Shown: positions 18,686 to 34,302 of the stretch, one piece after another
Layout of the letters: every line of letters begins with the position of its first letter
Position numbering within the stretch: the stretch's first letter is position 1
Position numbers and translations under genes: made by a program
Source of the DNA: Methanobacteriota archaeon
Lineage (GTDB): Archaea; Halobacteriota; Methanomicrobia; Methanomicrobiales; Methanomicrobiaceae
Assembly: GCA_016841485.1 (NCBI GenBank)
Contig: JAENZA010000001.1
Coordinates: 1 to 64,000 of the forward strand
Direction of reading: 5' to 3'
DNA length: 64,000 nt
The notes under the pieces: model-generated
Told to the model about the DNA's origin: nothing
The model's database searches: none
Seen by the model: only the letters and a program-made list of their open reading frames with translations

Positions 18686-19390
18686 ATGTACAATCTAAGG
18701 GGTTTTCGATTACTGAATGTGCCCCGGAGACCAGATATGAAGATAGGTATTGTTGGAGGTACGGGAGAGATTGGCGAAGGACTGGCCAGACGACTTTCTC
18801 ATAAGTATAAGGTCATTCTCGGATCGAGGGACAGAGATCGTGCCGAGGAAACAAGTAGCTGCACCATCGATCTCCTCAAAGGGAGAGGGTGCAATAATTG
18901 TTACTGCAGTGGTGGAACAAACCAGGATGCTGTAGACGGGGGAGAAGTCATAGTCCTTTCAATACCTTTCAAACATCTCAAATCCACGATCGGCTCACTC
19001 TCCGGATTTGAAGATAAGATCATAATCTCCCCGATCAATCCCATCGCCAGGAATGATTATTTTACCTATCAGCCACCCCCGGAAGGTTCTGCTGCTCTGG
19101 CATTAAAAACAATGCTTCCGGAAAGTGCCCGCGTCGTTGTGGCATTCAATAATGTAGCGGCGAATAAATGGAAACATCTCGATGAAGAGCTGGATTACTC
19201 CGTTGCGGTATGTGGTGACGACAATGAAGCCAAACGACTCGTCATGGGGATAGTTGAAAATATCTCACATCTTAAGGCATATGATGCCGGGCCCCTTTCA
19301 ATGTCACCGATAATTGAAGGCATTACCCCGCTTGTCCTGAATATTGCACGATTAAACGGCATGAAAGATGTCGGAATTGAATTTAAATAA
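18686..19390 (+). CDS. npdG: NADPH-dependent F420 reductase (F420H2:NADP+ oxidoreductase)
   Basis: 234 residues, Rossmann protein with MKIGIVGGTGEIGEGLA (dinucleotide loop), a Cys-rich insertion (GRGCNNCYCSGG), the FAFNNVA-like VVAFNNVAANKW and a C-terminal domain matching Fno/NpdG. The enzyme transfers hydride between F420H2 and NADP+ and provides NADPH for biosynthesis. Two starts compete. The ATG at 18686 has a strong AGGAGAGG Shine-Dalgarno and adds 17 residues; the internal ATG at 18737 has GGAG seven bases upstream and matches the usual N-terminus. I list the longer form because its ribosome site is stronger. Likely controlled with the divergent KamA-family gene. Confidence 0.9.
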   Translation: MYNLRGFRLLNVPRRPDMKIGIVGGTGEIGEGLARRLSHKYKVILGSRDRDRAEETSSCTIDLLKGRGCNNCYCSGGTNQDAVDGGEVIVLSIPFKHLKSTIGSLSGFEDKIIISPINPIARNDYFTYQPPPEGSAALALKTMLPESARVVVAFNNVAANKWKHLDEELDYSVAVCGDDNEAKRLVMGIVENISHLKAYDAGPLSMSPIIEGITPLVLNIARLNGMKDVGIEFK

Positions 19391-19542
19391 CCCATTCCGT
19401 TTTCCCAATTTTCTTTTTTACCCAAAATAACGTTATTTTTCAAATTAAACTGAATTTTCTTATATTTTCAGTATATATACCCAAATATAGACTATATATA
19501 AAATGAAAACCTTTATCTACCTTTTCAGGAAAATGTATTCCT
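19391..19542 (+). promoter_or_regulatory. terminator-like T-runs, palindrome and TATA-rich region
   Basis: After npdG there is a T-rich run (19410-19419) suitable for archaeal termination and a 16-base perfect palindrome aaaataacgttatttt (19424-19439). From 19465 the sequence is extremely AT-rich with several TATA-like elements. The motif gaaaacctttatc (19505-19517) would place a start near 19540, just where the candidate structured RNA begins. Confidence 0.45.
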
Positions 19543-19616
19543 GTTTGGTATAACCCTGCCGGTGGAGATTCGTGTCGCATCCCTCCAGCACCGGTGGGAA
19601 CACAAGGGTTCCAAAC
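19543..19616 (+). ncRNA. candidate structured RNA upstream of the FMN glutamate-synthase-like gene
   Basis: Three nested pairings enclose this 74-base stretch: gtttgg (19543-19548) with ccaaac (19611-19616), aaccct (19552-19557) with agggtt (19605-19610), and ccggtg (19559-19564) with caccgg (19589-19594); gag (19565-19567) can extend the inner stem against ctc with a small bulge. Only a 3-base bulge separates the outer helices on the 5' side and none on the 3' side. A TATA-like element lies about 30 bases upstream. A second TATA (tatatattata, 19625-19636) after it could drive the downstream gene separately, so the element could be a stand-alone small RNA or a leader. I do not recognise it as any known riboswitch. 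Confidence 0.5.
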
Positions 19617-19670
19617 AATTTCCCCTATATATTATAGCGACACTTATAACTGCAATCAAAGGAGTTGACA

Positions 19671-21260
19671 ATGAATCTTAGGCAGCCTAATGCAAACGAG
19701 GCGGTTCACACCTCGAACCGTTCACGTAACGTTGCCCCGGTATCCGGTATCTGCACACGCTGTGTAGACGGATGCAAGGGGAACTGTGAAATCTGGCTTT
19801 CATCTTTCCGCGGGCGTGAAGTGCTCTATCCAGGCCCCTTCGGAGAGATTACAGCAGGTGCAGACAAGAACTACCCGGTCGATTATTCACACCTGAACAT
19901 CCATGGCTACGCCGTAGGTGCAAACGGCCTTCCCGAGGGCGTTGAGGCAAACCCAGATACCGCCGTCTTCGATGATGTTAATACTGTAACCGAATATGGA
20001 TGGGATATCAAGGTCCCGATGAAAGTACCGATCTTTACCGGTGCACTCGGTTCGACGGAAATTGCCCGGGCAAACTGGGAGCACTTTGCCGTCGGTGCGG
20101 CAATCGCGGGTATCACCCTTGTGTGCGGTGAAAACGTCTGCGGTATTGACCCAGGTCTCAAACTGGACGCGAACCATAAAGTGGTTGAATCCCCGGAGAT
20201 GGATCGCAGGATCAATACCTACAGGAAATTCCACGAAGGCTATGGAGAGATCTTAGTCCAGATGAATGTCGAGGACACGCGGCTTGGAACCGCGGAATAC
20301 GTCTCTGCAAAGCACGAACTTGAGACTCTCGAACTGAAGTGGGGCCAGGGTGCAAAGTGCATCGGCGGTGAGATCAAGGTAGGTTCACTGGATCGGGCCC
20401 TCGAACTAAAGAGACGCGGATACATCGTCCTTCCGAACCCGACCCGCGCAGATGTGCAGGCATCATTCAAGGAGGGAGCTATTAAAGAATTTGAGCGTCA
20501 TTCACGTCTCGGATTTGTGACCAAGGAAGGATTCCTCGAGGAAGTCGATCGCCTTCGTGACATTGGATTCAAGCGCGTAACGCTGAAGACCGGTGCGTAC
20601 TCCATGAAAGAGCTTGCAATGGCCATGCGCTACTGTGCAGAGGCAAAGATCGACCTGCTCACCATTGACGGTGCACCAGGCGGTACCGGCATGAGCCCGT
20701 GGCCGATGATGAACGAATGGGGTATTCCAACGTTCTATCTCCAGTCCCTCACCTACGAATTTGCACAGGAACTCGAAAAGAAGGGCCTGCGTGTGCCTGA
20801 CCTTGCTATTGCAGGAGGATTCGGCGACGAAGCAAATGCATTCAAGGCGCTTGCCATGGGTGCACCGTACTTCAAGGCGGTCTGTATGGGTCGCGGCCTC
20901 ATGATTCCGGGCATGGTCGGAAAGAATATTGGCAAGTGGCTTGAGAAGGGCGAACTCCCCAAGACCGTTTCCAAATACGGAACAACGGTTGAAGAGATCT
21001 TCGTGACCTACGAAGAGCTCAAGGAGAAATACGGCGAGAGAATCAATGAAATCCCGCTCGGTGCAATCGGTATCTACACCTACGCCCAGCGCTTCAGGAC
21101 CGGCATGCAGCAGATCATGGCAGGAAGCCGCAACTTCAGCCTCAAGTCTGTCTCCCGTAACGACGTCTTCTCCCTCACCGAAGAAGCAGCAAAGATCTCC
21201 GGCATCCCGTACGTGATGGACTCCTACCGCTCAGAAGCGTACGAGATACTTGACGGATAA
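19671..21260 (+). CDS. FMN-binding glutamate synthase-family protein (stand-alone)
   Basis: 529 residues. An N-terminal four-Cys cluster (Cys28, 31, 35, 39 in CTRCVDGCKGNC) is followed by the FMN-binding beta/alpha barrel of the GltB central domain, with PIFTGALGSTE, GQGAKCIGGEIK, TIDGAPGGTGMSPWP and AIAGGFGDEANAFKALAMGA. No amidotransferase and no GXGXG domain are attached, unlike complete glutamate synthases. The protein is common in methanogens but its reaction is not settled; another flavin-dependent amino or oxo acid conversion is possible. The ATG follows an AAAGGAG Shine-Dalgarno by six bases; an in-frame TTG at 19665 is disfavoured. It lies downstream of the structured RNA and about 3.7 kb from the main glutamate synthase operon. 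Confidence 0.85.
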   Translation: MNLRQPNANEAVHTSNRSRNVAPVSGICTRCVDGCKGNCEIWLSSFRGREVLYPGPFGEITAGADKNYPVDYSHLNIHGYAVGANGLPEGVEANPDTAVFDDVNTVTEYGWDIKVPMKVPIFTGALGSTEIARANWEHFAVGAAIAGITLVCGENVCGIDPGLKLDANHKVVESPEMDRRINTYRKFHEGYGEILVQMNVEDTRLGTAEYVSAKHELETLELKWGQGAKCIGGEIKVGSLDRALELKRRGYIVLPNPTRADVQASFKEGAIKEFERHSRLGFVTKEGFLEEVDRLRDIGFKRVTLKTGAYSMKELAMAMRYCAEAKIDLLTIDGAPGGTGMSPWPMMNEWGIPTFYLQSLTYEFAQELEKKGLRVPDLAIAGGFGDEANAFKALAMGAPYFKAVCMGRGLMIPGMVGKNIGKWLEKGELPKTVSKYGTTVEEIFVTYEELKEKYGERINEIPLGAIGIYTYAQRFRTGMQQIMAGSRNFSLKSVSRNDVFSLTEEAAKISGIPYVMDSYRSEAYEILDG

Positions 21261-24235: not shown

Positions 24236-24823
24236 TATGCTTCCATCGACTCCCCATGCTGTGCAATATCCAGTCAGACCTACTCTTCCAGAGAGTTCAC
24301 ACAAAGACATCCCCGCCATGATCGGTGAGGGCCAGATCAAGGTATCCTCCGTCGTCCTGAAATGCAGTGGTAGGCTTTCCTTCTTCCGACATCCGAAACA
24401 GGAAAAATTCAAGCTCAGGAGCATTATTAAAATTCAAATCCAATTCTTCCGCTTTAAAAAGTGTTTTTTAAGAATGTAGCGTGGATCCCCCTCAAACGAA
24501 GTATCATCCGGGAGATATGTCACAGATGAAGCGGGCGACCTTCGCCTCCTCAGGACGCCAGGGCAGAATGGTAAATGTCCGGTGATATGGTTTGAGGAGC
24601 GTATCAGATGCTCCTATCCTCGCAAAACCGGTGATCGGTGAACCATCAAATCCAATGCCTCAGTCAGGGTATTTTCAGCCAGATTTACAGGTATCGCGAT
24701 GTATTTCGGGATTCCCTGGATATCTGAGAATTGCAGGCGGATGAATTTAATATCATCCTTTCGGATGCGCTCCAGCACTTGTACAACAGCACAACCCAGC
24801 GCATAGTAATGTGCTTCCACCAT
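24236..24823 (-). pseudogene. glnA: decayed second glutamine synthetase (glnA remnant)
   Basis: The N-terminal frame reads VLERIRKDDIKFIRLQFSD, almost the same as intact GlnA at 32968-34302. It breaks after about residue 60, and the continuation is found in other frames: [18 protein letters not shown], then [17 protein letters not shown], then TSFEGDPRYILKK, then APELEFFLFRMSEEGKPTT and FQDDGGYLDLALTDHGGD before an in-frame TGA. At least three frameshifts and one stop are needed to join the pieces. Only about the first 160 residues of a 440-residue enzyme remain, and the catalytic C-terminal half is missing. The remnant differs from the intact gene at many positions, so it was an older paralogue rather than a fresh duplicate. 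It is divergent from the glutamate synthase operon. Confidence 0.85.
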
Positions 24824-24858: not shown

Positions 24859-24889
24859 CAGACATTTCCTGTCTGGAAAGCTTAAAATG
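24859..24889 (+). promoter_or_regulatory. palindromes and TATA box before the glutamate synthase operon
   Basis: The sequence cagaca-tttcc-tgtctg (24859-24875) is a perfect 6-base inverted repeat, and the overlapping tttcc-tgtct-ggaaa (24865-24879) is a second perfect one. They abut the BRE/TATA element ggaaagcttaaaat (24875-24888), about 33 bases before the ATG at 24921. The position is ideal for a repressor that blocks TBP/TFB binding. NrpR, present nearby, is the obvious candidate, but its known operator (GGAA-N6-TTCC type) has the opposite half-site order. Confidence 0.55.
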
Positions 24890-24920: not shown

Positions 24921-25967
24921 ATGTGCGGAATAATCAGCGTGATCGACCGTTCCGGGGAACCTATGAACGGGTCGGCAATAAAAAATGCCCTGTCATTGAT
25001 GAACGAACGGGGAAATGGTGAAGGAGCGGGGTACGCCGTATACGGCGCATATCCGGACTATGCTGACTACTATGCCCTCCACCTGTTCTATGACAATCTT
25101 GTCGAACCGAAAGCCATCGTAGAGCAGGAACTGGAAAAATGGGGGACTATCGAAGTAAGTGAGATGATCCCGACCTCTGAGCAGCCGCGGCTTCGCAGGG
25201 AACATATTCCCTGGAGATACTTCTATAAACCGTATCCGAAATCCATGGGTACTGCAGCTACCGAAGAAGACATCCTGATTCATATAATGAATAAGATCAA
25301 CACAGAAATCCCGGGAGCACTCCTTTTTTCGACGGGGAAAAATATCGGGATCTTCAAAGCCTCGGGATGGCCCGAAGATGTGGCCGAGTTTTACCGTATC
25401 CAGGATTATGAAGGGTACCAATGGCTTGCGCACAACCGGTACCCCACCAATACATCCGGATGGTGGGGAGGGGCCCACCCATTTAACCTTCTCGACTGGA
25501 CTGTAGTACACAACGGAGAGATTACATCGTATGGTACAAACCGGAGATATTTGGAGAGTTTTGGTTATAAATGCACGATGTATACCGACACTGAAGTGGT
25601 AGCGTATCTTACCGACCTTCTGGCCCGCAGGCATGCACTTCCTCTTGAACTTGCTCTGAAAGCACTTGCCCCCCCATTCTGGGACGAAATAGACAATATG
25701 CCAGAAAATGAACGACAATTGAATACCACTATCAGAATGGCATATGGGTCGGCTCTTATGAATGGACCCTTCGCAATCGTTGTGGCCAATTCGGAAGGCA
25801 TCGCCGGAATTACCGACCGCATAAAACTCCGGCCGCTCGTCGCCGCTGAAGCGGGAGAACGCCTCTACATTTCCAGCGAAGAAGCAGCCATACGGGTCAT
25901 GGAACAGGATTTGGAACACATATGGATGCCTCGTGCCGGCGAGCCGGTTATCGGGAGGGTGCGATAA
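24921..25967 (+). CDS. glutamate synthase, glutamine amidotransferase (class II) subunit
   Basis: 348 residues starting MCGIISVIDRSG: Cys2 becomes the N-terminal nucleophile of the Ntn-type amidotransferase after Met removal, which fixes the start although the frame is open further upstream. LAHNRYPTNTSGWWGGAHPF and VVHNGEITSYG are the glutamine-binding motifs. The domain hydrolyses glutamine and delivers ammonia to 2-oxoglutarate at the FMN subunit. First gene of a four-gene operon; its TAA overlaps the next ATG by one base. Regulation is probably through the palindromic element just upstream. Confidence 0.9.
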   Translation: MCGIISVIDRSGEPMNGSAIKNALSLMNERGNGEGAGYAVYGAYPDYADYYALHLFYDNLVEPKAIVEQELEKWGTIEVSEMIPTSEQPRLRREHIPWRYFYKPYPKSMGTAATEEDILIHIMNKINTEIPGALLFSTGKNIGIFKASGWPEDVAEFYRIQDYEGYQWLAHNRYPTNTSGWWGGAHPFNLLDWTVVHNGEITSYGTNRRYLESFGYKCTMYTDTEVVAYLTDLLARRHALPLELALKALAPPFWDEIDNMPENERQLNTTIRMAYGSALMNGPFAIVVANSEGIAGITDRIKLRPLVAAEAGERLYISSEEAAIRVMEQDLEHIWMPRAGEPVIGRVR

Positions 25968-27484
25968 TGCCAATTGGCAGCACTCCCCCTAAATACCGGG
26001 TCAGGATTGATAATGACCGATGCATGCTCTGTGAACAGTGCATCGAAAACTGCCCCTACGGAACGTTTAGGAAAGAAGGCAACAAAATTCTGGTGAATTC
26101 ACGAGCCTGTACCGGATGTCACCGGTGCATTGCAATGTGTCCCCGCGATGCCATCGATCTCGAGGAAAAGCCGGTGGATTATCGTTCCCATCCGATATGG
26201 ACACGTGAGGCGCGAGAGGCAATATACAACCAGGCAAGAACCGGGAAAATCATTCTCGCAGGCATGGGCAATATCCTTGAAGTTCCACCAATATTCGACC
26301 GGCTACTTCTCGATGCCTGCCAGGTCACCAATCCATCCATCGATCCCCTCAGGGAGCCGATGGAGCTTCGTACCTATATCGGAAAGAAACCATCAAAAGT
26401 GGAAGTGGCAACAAAACCGAATGGCGACATCGAGCTGCTGACCCACCTTGCGCCGAATCTCAAATGTGAAACGCCCATCATGATCGGGCATATGAGCTAT
26501 GGGGCTATCTCTCTCAATGCCCAACTCTCCCTTGCACGGGGTGCAGCAGCGCAGGGAACCTTTATGGGGACAGGTGAGGGAGGCCTTCACAAGCACCTTT
26601 ACCCCTACCAGGATCATATGATCGTCCAGGTTGCCTCCGGAAGGTTTGGCGTCGACATTGATTATCTCGAACGTGGGGCCGCAATAGAGATCAAGATAGG
26701 ACAGGGGGCCAAGCCGGGTATCGGAGGACACCTGCCCGGCGAAAAAGTGGATGAAAGCGTATCCGGAACCCGTATGATACCGGTTTCAAGCGATGCCATA
26801 AGTCCCGCCCCACATCATGACATCTATTCGATTGAAGACCTCGCACAACTGGTACGGGGACTCAAAGAAGCGACCGAATGGAAAAAACCGGTCTTTGTGA
26901 AGATCGCGGCAGTCCACAATGTTGCCGCCATTGCATCGGGAATTGCCCGATCCTCAGCAGACGCAGTCGTCATTGACGGATTCCGTGGCGGGACGGGGGC
27001 AGCTCCGAGAGTATTTCGGGACCATGTGGGAATTCCCATTGAAGCTGCAGTGGCTGCGGTCGATGAAAAACTCAGACACCATGGTGTCCGTAATGAAGTT
27101 TCAGTCATTGCTTCGGGAGGCATCCGTGACAGTGCAGACGTCACCAAGACCATTGCCCTGGGGGCAGATGCCGTGTATATCGGCACCGCCGCACTGATAT
27201 CCCTCGGATGCCGGGTCTGTGGAAGCTGCTATCGCGGCCTGTGCCCCTGGGGGATAGCGACCCAGCGTCCGGATCTGGTCGCACGACTGGACCCGGACAT
27301 CATGTGGGAGAATGTATCCAACCTCATCAACGGATGGACCCTGGAGATTGCAGAACTCATGGGTGCTGCCGGCATTAACTCAATTGAAAGCCTGAGAGGA
27401 AACCGGGACCGGTTACGAGCATATATGCTTGACGAAAATCTCATGGAAGTCCTTGATGTAAAGACCGTCGGAGCAGGTGCATAG
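25967..27484 (+). CDS. glutamate synthase, FMN/ferredoxin-domain subunit (archaeal GltB)
   Basis: 505 residues. About residues 15-70 carry a 2x[4Fe-4S] ferredoxin (CMLCEQCIENC and CTGCHRCIAMC). The barrel has PIMIGHMSYGAISLNAQ, GTGEGGLHKHLYPY, KIGQGAKPGIGGHLPG, IDGFRGGTGAAPRVFRD and ASGGIRDSADVTKTIALGADAVYIGT; CRVCGSCYRGLCPWGIATQ supplies the cysteines of the 3Fe-4S site near the FMN. This subunit reduces the 2-iminoglutarate formed from 2-oxoglutarate and ammonia. A GGGAGGG Shine-Dalgarno lies inside the end of the preceding gene. The next gene begins two bases after the stop. Confidence 0.92.
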   Translation: MPIGSTPPKYRVRIDNDRCMLCEQCIENCPYGTFRKEGNKILVNSRACTGCHRCIAMCPRDAIDLEEKPVDYRSHPIWTREAREAIYNQARTGKIILAGMGNILEVPPIFDRLLLDACQVTNPSIDPLREPMELRTYIGKKPSKVEVATKPNGDIELLTHLAPNLKCETPIMIGHMSYGAISLNAQLSLARGAAAQGTFMGTGEGGLHKHLYPYQDHMIVQVASGRFGVDIDYLERGAAIEIKIGQGAKPGIGGHLPGEKVDESVSGTRMIPVSSDAISPAPHHDIYSIEDLAQLVRGLKEATEWKKPVFVKIAAVHNVAAIASGIARSSADAVVIDGFRGGTGAAPRVFRDHVGIPIEAAVAAVDEKLRHHGVRNEVSVIASGGIRDSADVTKTIALGADAVYIGTAALISLGCRVCGSCYRGLCPWGIATQRPDLVARLDPDIMWENVSNLINGWTLEIAELMGAAGINSIESLRGNRDRLRAYMLDENLMEVLDVKTVGAGA

Positions 27485-29389: not shown

Positions 29390-30133
29390 ATGACCCAGCT
29401 GAAATTTATCAACCACCTCATCGACGAATATGCCCTGCAGGTATCCTACGATCCTTACCATGACGAGGGGGAGGTCATATTCAACCTCACTATGATAAAA
29501 GAGGATGATCTGGATGCGGCACGACTGATCATGAAAGAAGCATACGCAGCAGGCGTATGTGTGAGCAACCGGGTAAAATTCGCTCTTTCAGGTGAACGGA
29601 TCGGGGATTTTGCAATCCCTGCCGGCCATATTGGAGTAGTAACGATGTGCAGCATCACCGTCGATGCCATCCTTCTTCGCCAGGGGATTCCCCTGAACCC
29701 GATTGGGGGAGGCCTCGTGGAAATAAGAGATAATGTACCTAAACGTTTTACGACGATGATAAAATACGATTCCACAACGATTGATCCGACACAGGTCATG
29801 ATCGATCAGGGAACCACCCACATCACCGATGTCATCATGACCGGTACGGGCAGTATCCTTGCAAATATCAGGGAGTGCCATATGGAGGCGGAAACACTCC
29901 TTTTTAATACACTTGAAGATCTGACCAAAGCAGGAATCACCGGTGTGCTGGAAGTAGGCAATCCTAATTCCCCTCTTCTCGGTGTCCCGATTACAACGAA
30001 TTACCTCGGTCTTGCGATGATTGGCGGAACAAACCCGATCGCGGCGTTTATTGAATCGGGAAGATGGGCCGACACAAAAGCGATGAAGGGCCTGATGGAT
30101 GTTGCCCATTTTGAAACAATGGAAACCATCTGA
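29390..30133 (+). CDS. NrpR-like nitrogen regulator lacking a DNA-binding domain
   Basis: 247 residues of a single NrpR (DUF128) effector domain with GHIGVVTMCSITVDAILLRQG, GTTIDPT-type sequence (STTIDPTQVMIDQG) and MTGTGSILANIRECH. There is no N-terminal winged helix. In Methanosarcina a two-protein NrpR system is known in which one partner supplies DNA binding and the other contacts the transcription machinery; this protein probably plays the non-DNA-binding role. 2-Oxoglutarate is the known inducer of the family. It follows the glutamate synthase operon by 116 bases and is convergent with the HTH-containing NrpR. Confidence 0.85.
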   Translation: MTQLKFINHLIDEYALQVSYDPYHDEGEVIFNLTMIKEDDLDAARLIMKEAYAAGVCVSNRVKFALSGERIGDFAIPAGHIGVVTMCSITVDAILLRQGIPLNPIGGGLVEIRDNVPKRFTTMIKYDSTTIDPTQVMIDQGTTHITDVIMTGTGSILANIRECHMEAETLLFNTLEDLTKAGITGVLEVGNPNSPLLGVPITTNYLGLAMIGGTNPIAAFIESGRWADTKAMKGLMDVAHFETMETI

Positions 30134-30145
30134 TTGTATCAGATC

Positions 30146-31099
30146 TTAGTCATTCAGGAATCTGGCAAACGGGATTATTCCAGCCCCTATTTCTGTATAA
30201 ATGGGGTATCCCTTTTCTACCGCATTTGCCACAAGATTCATGCCGCTGTAAAAAACAATTGAAAGCCGGTACGGATCCGGCCTGAGATTAAATAGACCAT
30301 TCCCTATCCCTACCGGACGGACGAAACCGCATTTTACCATATGCTCAACGCACTCTTCTACCCGGCTCTTTGCCTTGTTTGTCACTTCACGGACATTGGC
30401 CAGAGCAATTCCCGTCCCAGTTGTCGCTACCTGATGGATACTGGTGAGTCCCGCATTGATGAACAGCGGAAGAGGATCGACCGTCGTCCCCTTATACCCG
30501 ATAAGGTCGACGAATCCCACCGGCTTTGAATCAATGACTGAAAATCTGCCGCCATATACCACATTCACTGCAATACCATGATTTTGGAGTACTCCGTCCA
30601 TTGTGATCGAACATGCACTCATAAACCCGGCATGACCCTCAGGAAGACGCGGGTCCTGATCGGTAATACAATATCCTTTATAAAAGGTGTAGCCCCCTTC
30701 AATGACTTCGTCGAAGGCACGTGCCACATCATCAACATATTCATATGGAACCACCGTAAGATTGTATCCGATATCCCCGGTTGCCGTTTCGGGATTAAAT
30801 GTGACATTAAAGGCCAGTTTCTCTAATTTTGAGATGACATATCCCATCCGGTCATCTATGAGGGCCAGATTTGCCTCAGCGACACCTTCATCTGTGAGAA
30901 TTCTCCCTTTATTTCCTATTTTATGGGTAAATCCCTGTTCATCCAGATACTGAAGATAATACTGAACAGCACGATCGGTTAACAGGAATCCACGTTCCGC
31001 CAATAGCTCACTAAGGCGCTTCGCCCCTATTGGCTCCTGATGCTCTGAGAGAATGCGAAGAATTTCCACACATTTCCTCTCTGAACGAATAAAACTCAT
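30146..31099 (-). CDS. nrpR: NrpR, nitrogen regulatory repressor with winged helix
   Basis: 317 residues. Residues 1-70 are a winged helix (RKCVEILRILSEHQEPIGAK, LTDRAVQYYLQYLDEQGF), followed by one NrpR effector domain with GHAGFMSACSITMDGVL, GTTVDPLPLFINAGLTSI and TTGTGIALANVREV. NrpR represses nif, glnA and amt-glnK genes at inverted-repeat operators when 2-oxoglutarate is low. It is surrounded by genes of exactly that regulon. Convergent with the DUF128-only protein (12 bases between stops). Confidence 0.9.
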   Translation of the reverse strand: MSFIRSERKCVEILRILSEHQEPIGAKRLSELLAERGFLLTDRAVQYYLQYLDEQGFTHKIGNKGRILTDEGVAEANLALIDDRMGYVISKLEKLAFNVTFNPETATGDIGYNLTVVPYEYVDDVARAFDEVIEGGYTFYKGYCITDQDPRLPEGHAGFMSACSITMDGVLQNHGIAVNVVYGGRFSVIDSKPVGFVDLIGYKGTTVDPLPLFINAGLTSIHQVATTGTGIALANVREVTNKAKSRVEECVEHMVKCGFVRPVGIGNGLFNLRPDPYRLSIVFYSGMNLVANAVEKGYPIYTEIGAGIIPFARFLND

Positions 31100-31325: not shown

Positions 31326-31640
31326 TCATGTCCGGACCGGATAGATCCCTTCAACAGGAATAATAAAGATCTTTCCGTCTCCTGCCTCACCGGTATACGC
31401 CGCCTTCTGCAGTATGGTAACAATCTTTCCTGCGGATTCATCCTCTATAACCAGTTCCAGTTTTACCTTGGGGATGAGATCCACGTTTACCTTCTTGCCG
31501 CGAAACTGGAGAGAGATCCCCCTCTGAGCACCCCTGCCGCGGACCTCAGTCACCGTCATTGCATAAAATCCGGCTTCATCAAGTGCTGTCTTGGCATCTT
31601 CGAGTTTTTCCGGACGGATGATTGCTTCAACCTTCTTCAT
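31326..31640 (-). CDS. glnK: P-II family nitrogen regulatory protein
   Basis: 104 residues starting MKKVEAIIRPEKLEDA, the canonical P-II N-terminus; GTG and ATG codons up to three codons upstream are possible. The T-loop reads RGRGAQRGISLQFRGKKVNVD: the uridylylated tyrosine of bacterial GlnB/GlnK (in the YRG..Y region) is missing, as in many archaea, so control should rest on ATP, ADP and 2-oxoglutarate binding. GEAGDGKIFIIPVE is the C-loop signature. It follows amt by 12 bases and should plug the ammonium channel when nitrogen is ample. Confidence 0.95.
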   Translation of the reverse strand: MKKVEAIIRPEKLEDAKTALDEAGFYAMTVTEVRGRGAQRGISLQFRGKKVNVDLIPKVKLELVIEDESAGKIVTILQKAAYTGEAGDGKIFIIPVEGIYPVRT

Positions 31641-32967: not shown

Positions 32968-34302
32968 TCAGAACCTTGAGAGGTACTGCTCTACTTCCCA
33001 CGGATGGACGGCTGTGCGGAACGAGTCCCATTCCATCTTAGCGATACTGTTGAGACCTTCCACAACATGACCTCCAAGCGTTTCACAGATGAGCGAATCT
33101 TCCAGAAGACACTTGTTTGCAGTAAACAGATCTCCCGGAAGTGTCTCAATGTGAGCCTGTTTGCGCTCTTCATCGGTCATGGCGAAGATGTTCTTGTCCG
33201 CGCTTGCCGGCGGTTCCATCTCTTTCTTTATACCTTCCAGACCAGCAGCGAGAATTGCCGCAAACGTCAGATATGGGTTACAGGTAGGATCCGGACTTCG
33301 TACTTCAACACGGGTAGAATTCCCACGAGGGGCCGGAACCCTGATAAGAGCGGTACGATTACTGCCACTCCAGCTCACATAGACCGGGGCTTCATATCCC
33401 GGTACCAGCCTTTTATACGAATTAACCGTCGGATTGGCAAGGCGGGTAATGGCCTTGATATGCTCAAGCACACCGGCAATAAAATGCATGGATGTCCGGG
33501 AGAGCTGCATCGGCGCTTCAGGGTCATAGAACGCGTTCTTTCCGTCCTTGAAGAGGGAAGCGTTGATATGCATTCCGTTTCCGTTGATCCCGTAAACCGG
33601 TTTTGCCATGAATGTTGCATGAAGACCGTTCATAAGGGCAATTGATTTCGTTGCAAACTTGAATGTCAGCACGTTGTCTGCCGTCGTGAGAGCATCACCG
33701 TACTTGAAATCAATTTCATGCTGACTCTCTGCGACTTCATGATGTGATGCCTCAATTTCAAAGCCCATGTTGGTGAGGGCACCGATAATCTGAGCCCTGA
33801 CGTCTTCGGCGAGGTCCGTCGGAGAAAGATCGAAATACCCGCCCAGGTCTTGGAACCCCGTTGTGGGCATCCCCTGTTCGTCTCTCTTAAAGAGGAAGAA
33901 TTCCATCTCAGGTCCGGTATTGAATTCATACCCCATAGAGGCGGCCTCATTGATCACTGTTTTCAGCACATGCCGCGGATCACCTGCAAACGGAGTACCA
34001 TCCGGAAGATAGACATCACAGATGAACCGTGCAACCTTTGAATCAACAGGCCTCCAGGGAAGGATCCTGTAGGTATTCAGATCGGGTTTCAGAACCATAT
34101 CAGATTCTTCAATCCGTGCAAATCCCTCAATGGAAGAGCCGTCAAAGCCAATTCCATTGGTAAGTGCTTTCTCTGCCTGAGTCACGGGGATTGACACATT
34201 CTTTGGCAACCCCTGGATATCAGAAAACTGAAGCCTGATAAACTTGATGTTGTCAGCTTCGATCTTCTCTAGCATTTTTGTGACATCAGATGTCTCTGCC
34301 AT
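32968..34302 (-). CDS. glnA: glutamine synthetase, type I
   Basis: 444 residues, the normal GSI length. Motifs in order: FIRLQFSDIQG, GIGFDGSSIEGFARIEESD (Mg/glutamate site), [28 protein letters not shown] (ATP site), GYEAPVYVSWSGSNRTALIRVP and NPYLTFAAILAAGLEGI. The position of the adenylylated Tyr of GSI-beta is Phe here (SADKNIFAMT), so the enzyme is GSI-alpha type and not adenylylated. It joins ammonia to glutamate with ATP. No Shine-Dalgarno precedes the ATG, and a TATA box 22-35 bases upstream implies a leaderless mRNA. A broken second copy is at 24236-24823. Confidence 0.97.
   Translation of the reverse strand: MAETSDVTKMLEKIEADNIKFIRLQFSDIQGLPKNVSIPVTQAEKALTNGIGFDGSSIEGFARIEESDMVLKPDLNTYRILPWRPVDSKVARFICDVYLPDGTPFAGDPRHVLKTVINEAASMGYEFNTGPEMEFFLFKRDEQGMPTTGFQDLGGYFDLSPTDLAEDVRAQIIGALTNMGFEIEASHHEVAESQHEIDFKYGDALTTADNVLTFKFATKSIALMNGLHATFMAKPVYGINGNGMHINASLFKDGKNAFYDPEAPMQLSRTSMHFIAGVLEHIKAITRLANPTVNSYKRLVPGYEAPVYVSWSGSNRTALIRVPAPRGNSTRVEVRSPDPTCNPYLTFAAILAAGLEGIKKEMEPPASADKNIFAMTDEERKQAHIETLPGDLFTANKCLLEDSLICETLGGHVVEGLNSIAKMEWDSFRTAVHPWEVEQYLSRF

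Follow-up and report, generated by a model that had tools for sequence, protein, structure and literature searches.

The question raised by this locus is whether three nested pairs of complementary arms, found in front of a glutamate synthase-like gene, belong to a functional RNA and, if so, to which kind. The arms lie in the window (the whole stretch of DNA analysed here, 64 kb in length) within an intergenic gap of 280 nt, which is bounded by the end of npdG, encoding an F420-dependent oxidoreductase, at 19390 and by the start of the gltB-like gene at 19671 (Table 1). A sequence-only reading had described the arms as a single structured RNA, either a leader or a small RNA, with a promoter-like motif upstream and a second one downstream. 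Direct reading of the sequence confirms the three perfect 6-bp pairs in non-coding DNA, and both TATA-like stretches are present. The gltB-like protein lacks the glutaminase domain, and a PDB sequence search with it gave no match. The 3′ outer arm is separated from the ATG by 54 nt, a spacing of about 40–55 nt in the relatives.

Table 1. Features of the leader region and of the nitrogen genes in the window.
Feature	Position	Strand	Remark
TATA-like box TTTATCTA	19512–19519	+	TTTATTTA in congener G001; orthologues have TATA-like boxes at the same place
Palindrome CAGGAAAATGTATTCCTG	19526–19543		GGAAN6TTCC match at 19528–19541; stands where the order-wide element GGAARGNAAGNRCTTATNA would
Candidate leader RNA structure (as drawn in the sequence-only reading)	19543–19616	+	in the 280-nt gap 5′ of the gltB-like gene
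5′ outer arm GUUUGG (DNA GTTTGG)	19543–19548	+	letters equal to order-wide leader hairpin
5′ middle arm AACCCU (DNA AACCCT)	19552–19557	+	genus only; kept in G001
5′ inner arm CCGGUG (DNA CCGGTG)	19559–19564	+	partner not kept in G001
3′ inner arm CACCGG	19589–19594	+	changed in G001, pairing broken
3′ middle arm AGGGUU (DNA AGGGTT)	19605–19610	+	genus only; G001 copy lacks one base
3′ outer arm CCAAAC	19611–19616	+	letters equal to order-wide leader hairpin
Second TATA-like, AT-rich stretch	about 19625–19637	+	putative second promoter
Ribosome-binding site AGGAG	19660–19664	+	read from sequence; identical in G001
gltB-like gene (glutamate synthase domain, 529 aa)	19671–21260	+	directly 3′ of leader
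NrpR-family protein (PF01995)	29399–30115	+	PF01995 match
Second NrpR-family protein	30158–30844	-	PF01995 match in 318-aa frame
GlnK (P-II) gene	31329–31640	-	match in window
glnA catalytic domain	32983–33984	-	domain match; complete glnA about 32971–34302

About 1% of dinucleotide-shuffled versions of the 280-nt gap contain three nested perfect 6-bp arms. The strict outer pair GTTTGG..CCAAAC within 75 nt, which occurs only once in the 64 kb window, is found in 0.3% of them, and a comparable stem in 4–7% once G-U pairs are allowed. The predicted fold energy of -26.7 stands against -22.5 ± 3.2 for the shuffles (z -1.3, with 19 of 200 shuffles as good), and the opposite strand of the region is equally unremarkable. 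Since the fold energy is not significant on either strand, it is the comparison with relatives that decides. Rfam yielded no usable match, whether the window, the leader or the relatives were scanned; a permuted-tmRNA hit of 14.9 bits (E 0.42) was rejected as far under the cutoff of 47.

Only one congener (G001) keeps the gltB-like gene, with a protein identity of 96%; the third genome of the genus is 82% complete and yielded no gltB-like orthologue. Alignment of the two leaders reveals identical outer arms, a middle helix short of one base and a broken inner helix. The predicted fold of the G001 leader has the same outer stem and a different interior, the outer stem being intact despite the diverged loop between its arms. 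With a single congener and identical arms, the outer stem has no covariation inside the genus. The inner arms were seen in no relative outside the genus, and the three helices cannot be upheld as one conserved RNA.

Orthologous leaders were drawn from whole genomes and, in addition, from named contigs of Methanoregula, Methanolinea, Methanoculleus, Methanospirillum, Methanocalculus, Methanothrix and others. A promoter element is located directly after the TATA box in these leaders, with the form GGAARGCAAGCGCTTATNA in the Methanoregula and Methanolinea types and related forms elsewhere. About 44 nt downstream of the element, the gltB-like leaders carry a hairpin of the form GUUUGRG-(5–12 nt)-CYCARAC. 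When 38 leaders were picked by the element GGAARGCAAGCGCTTATNA alone, with the pairing not looked at, the hairpin was present in all of them (37 were detected automatically, and the remaining one, L111, has the same leader sequence as L025). The distance from the element to the first arm remains steady at 42–46 nt while the spacer between the arms varies from 5 to 12 nt.

Analysis of 48 such sequences shows standard pairing in 98.5% of the cells as against 17–54% in slid controls, the rows of the counting alignments having been required to contain the GTTTG stem except for the unselected 38. Shuffle comparisons of these leaders are biased upward by the relatedness of the sequences. One pair of the stem is GC in 26 sequences and AU in 21. 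Wobble pairs occupy 32 cells against 5 failures of 336, with changes from U-A to U-G at two positions, and RNAalifold returns the same helix unprompted. When the Methanospirillum-type stems GUCUGG/CCAGAC and GUUCGG/CCGGAC are added, both-side changes are seen in four of the eight pairs.

No GUUUGG hairpin was seen in genera g3, g5, g6 and g8 of the window's own family, and most Methanoculleus leaders have less than 40 nt after the element and no hairpin. Leaders of g3 and g5 (L006, L007, L013, L015 and L016; L007 and L013 on the reverse strand) show other apparent hairpins in place of GUUUGG, of the forms GGCAUGU..ACAUGCC, CAGGA..UCCUG and GUAUYGCAGG..CCUGCAAUAC. In the Methanothrix leaders of the gltB-like gene (L075, L094, L095, L102, L112 and L116), the TATA box is followed by an element that includes GGAA, often CCGGAAG..TTTCTG, and there is a GC-rich hairpin of about CUGGGCGGA..UCCGCCCGG; this arrangement is perhaps a distant form of the order-wide one.

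The same pair of signals is also present before a second gene of ammonium assimilation. In two genomes (G028 and G033) the promoter element precedes glutamate dehydrogenase, about 45 nt ahead of a hairpin with the same stem, and the covariance model R1 recovers both the gdhA and the gltB-like leaders in each. The gdhA loci with element and hairpin (L157, L162–L166, L196 and L197) belong to a Methanocalculus-like family (f6, g14). A search of 199 genomes with a composite pattern (element, 22–52 nt, GTTTGR) returned 43 matches, each in a different genome, as against 2 for the reversed control; among the 30 matched loci that were fetched, 24 are gltB-like, 6 are gdhA and none is another gene. R1 also finds, at E 3e-7, the untrained gltB-like leaders of genus g9, which is a member of the window's own family; here the arms are GUCUGG/CUGGAC, and one species has a loop enlarged to 20 nt. 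Outside the gltB-like and gdhA families, only chance-like matches to R1 or to the element were obtained. An R1 match inside a reading frame in G023 and an element match within an ABC-transporter gene (G028:C46) were both taken as chance. Across the order, a conserved paired stem is found at a fixed position in two gene contexts and is restricted to those genes.

Does the window carry a member of this group? Its outer stem, GUUUGG/CCAAAC, matches GUUUGRG/CYCARAC with standard pairs at six of seven positions, and it lies in the leader of the gltB-like gene after a promoter element. However, 62 nt separate the arms instead of 5–12 nt, and the hairpin begins 15 nt after the GGAA of the palindrome as compared with 42–46 nt elsewhere. 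The R1 score in the window is not significant (1.6 bits, E 0.89), and the best unfiltered placement of the model there is GUUUGG-[62]-CCAAAC. To judge from these letters and positions, the window quite likely contains an enlarged, lineage-specific form of the order-wide leader hairpin, the two stems being putative homologues.

The palindrome CAGGAAAATGTATTCCTG sits between the TATA-like box and the first arm, and in the aligned leaders it is identical in G001 while the flanks differ. The NrpR operator of Methanococcus maripaludis is GGAAN6TTCC (PMC2723118), and the window has this motif in the promoter, kept in G001. NrpR is encoded close by, two NrpR-family proteins with PF01995 matches being present 10 kb away; the 318-aa frame of the second extends beyond its match and leaves room for a DNA-binding domain. 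The site GGAAAATGTATTCC fits the M. maripaludis form of the operator (GGTA-N6-TACC is the form in M. mazei) and overlaps the putative transcription start, which we place at about 19541–19543. It was not found in the promoters of the remaining nitrogen genes in the window, those of glnA and glnK/amtB included, and at the corresponding position the relatives in the family carry another right half (TGTA, TATA). One other exact copy of the operator occurs in the window, at 30985–30998, within the frame that encodes the second NrpR-family protein. The palindrome was rejected as a repeated genomic operator, its second CAGGAAN6TTCCTG copy falling within a reading frame. NrpR control of the gltB-like promoter is likely, and we put it no higher because the consensus is not seen before the other nitrogen genes of the window.

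Taken with the relatives, these features lead us to regard the stretch as the 5′ leader of the gltB-like mRNA and its outer stem as a lineage-specific, enlarged version of the order-wide hairpin, probably serving post-transcriptional control; we hold this reading with some confidence. Of the two possibilities offered by the sequence-only reading, the leader stands for the outer helix, as orthologous leaders share its stem letters, covary, vary in the loop and recur before gdhA. A small RNA that responds to nitrogen and is made separately from a promoter of its own, comparable to sRNA154 in Methanosarcina mazei, would account for the TATA-like box, the GC-rich island and the second TATA-like box downstream; at the sRNA154 promoter, too, there is a putative NrpR operator (PMC3177094). 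However, sRNA154 is an independent intergenic RNA, whereas here a related element is found on the gene's own strand in the leader of the same gene in dozens of species, with the spacing from its 3′ arm to the ATG kept; a free-standing RNA is therefore very unlikely. It is also rather unlikely that the palindrome, as an NrpR operator, is all that matters in the window, with the nested arms arising by chance or as a lineage-specific fold that adds stability but has no regulatory link to the order-wide hairpin. The unexceptional z of the fold, the broken inner helix in G001, the failure of R1 in the window and the perfect retention of the palindrome between differing flanks are all consistent with such a view, but the letters of the outer stem equal the order-wide consensus (the strict-pair chance given above) and the stem is retained in G001 around a diverged loop.

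The inverted repeat GTTTGRG-N-CYCARAC could instead be a DNA operator for a dimeric protein, of which the window copy would be widely spaced or decayed. In favour of this, the inverted repeat keeps a fixed distance from a promoter element, and its left arm is nearly invariant, as expected of a binding site. However, a spacer of 5–12 nt between half-sites is unusual for a dimer, the arms in the window are 62 nt apart, and nearly all changes in the right arm still permit wobble pairing in RNA of the plus strand, whereas on the other strand they would give mismatches. We favour an RNA hairpin because the loop varies, the distance to the element is fixed, the 5′ arm is invariant and the wobble in the 3′ arm is kept on the plus strand, and we consider the operator unlikely. 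A riboswitch for glutamine, 2-oxoglutarate or ammonium would suit a leader position before two ammonium-assimilation genes, and the glutamine riboswitches (glnA RNA and Downstream-peptide) are likewise leader RNAs of nitrogen-assimilation genes. These riboswitches have an aptamer-like core architecture, unlike the leader described here, which is without an Rfam match and consists of one short hairpin, its unpaired parts showing similarity at the level of clades but no conserved core beyond that. An aptamer is unlikely because the loop is not conserved in letters or length, and as judged from the leaders a metabolite-binding riboswitch would be highly improbable.

In the preferred reading, a leader hairpin, the start of transcription would fall close to 19541, past the TATA box and bordering the palindrome CAGGAAAATGTATTCCTG; a repressor bound there, most likely NrpR, would block initiation under plentiful nitrogen. 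The transcript would open almost immediately with a hairpin closed by GUUUGG/CCAAAC. This hairpin would most likely act after transcription start, either by being recognised within the leader by a small RNA or an RNA-binding protein or as an element that affects stability or translation of ammonium-assimilation mRNAs. A nitrogen response of the leader is plausible, considering the functions of the genes, the match to the NrpR operator and the surrounding cluster of nitrogen genes. Protein-bound leader hairpins, such as the autogenous leaders of ribosomal proteins, are short, have an invariant 5′ arm and a variable loop and are common to related genes, as is the case here. Unlike those leaders, the present one is not in a ribosomal operon.

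To our knowledge, few cis-acting leader RNAs have been described in archaea, and among the papers searched there was none on such a leader in Methanomicrobiales. Tentatively, Methanomicrobiales may possess an undescribed post-transcriptional nitrogen regulon, in which a trans-acting factor would act on the GUUUGRG/CYCARAC hairpins of the gltB-like and gdhA mRNAs, coupled to a gene-specific promoter element; the window's genus would have grown the hairpin and swapped the element for an NrpR operator. A short covarying hairpin that is shared, along with a promoter element, by two genes of ammonium assimilation across Methanomicrobiales offers a concrete, testable target for studying how glutamate synthesis is tuned in hydrogenotrophic methanogens, beyond the known repression by NrpR.

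Some further features of the leaders and the locus may be recorded. Of 39 leaders, 25 have a second hairpin between the first one and the start codon, where shuffling predicts 12.6. It is lineage-specific, occurring in many Methanoregula and Methanolinea leaders (L066–L131), and is outside the core description. A conserved upstream ORF was dismissed, as by eye the ATGs of some leaders give differing frames and peptides. The window as a whole is a nitrogen locus, which also includes a GATase (glutaminase-domain) protein, with its start probably at 24921, followed by a weaker second glutamate-synthase-like match at 26921–27250. Between a TATA-like box and this probable start lies an inverted repeat TTTCC-N5-GGAAA (24865–24879), the sole copy in the window and not kept in G001. 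A decayed second copy of glnA is located at 24306–24787 on the minus strand in two frames, which show 66% and 45% identity with the second glnA of G001, an intact copy (tblastn 3e-40 and 1e-19).
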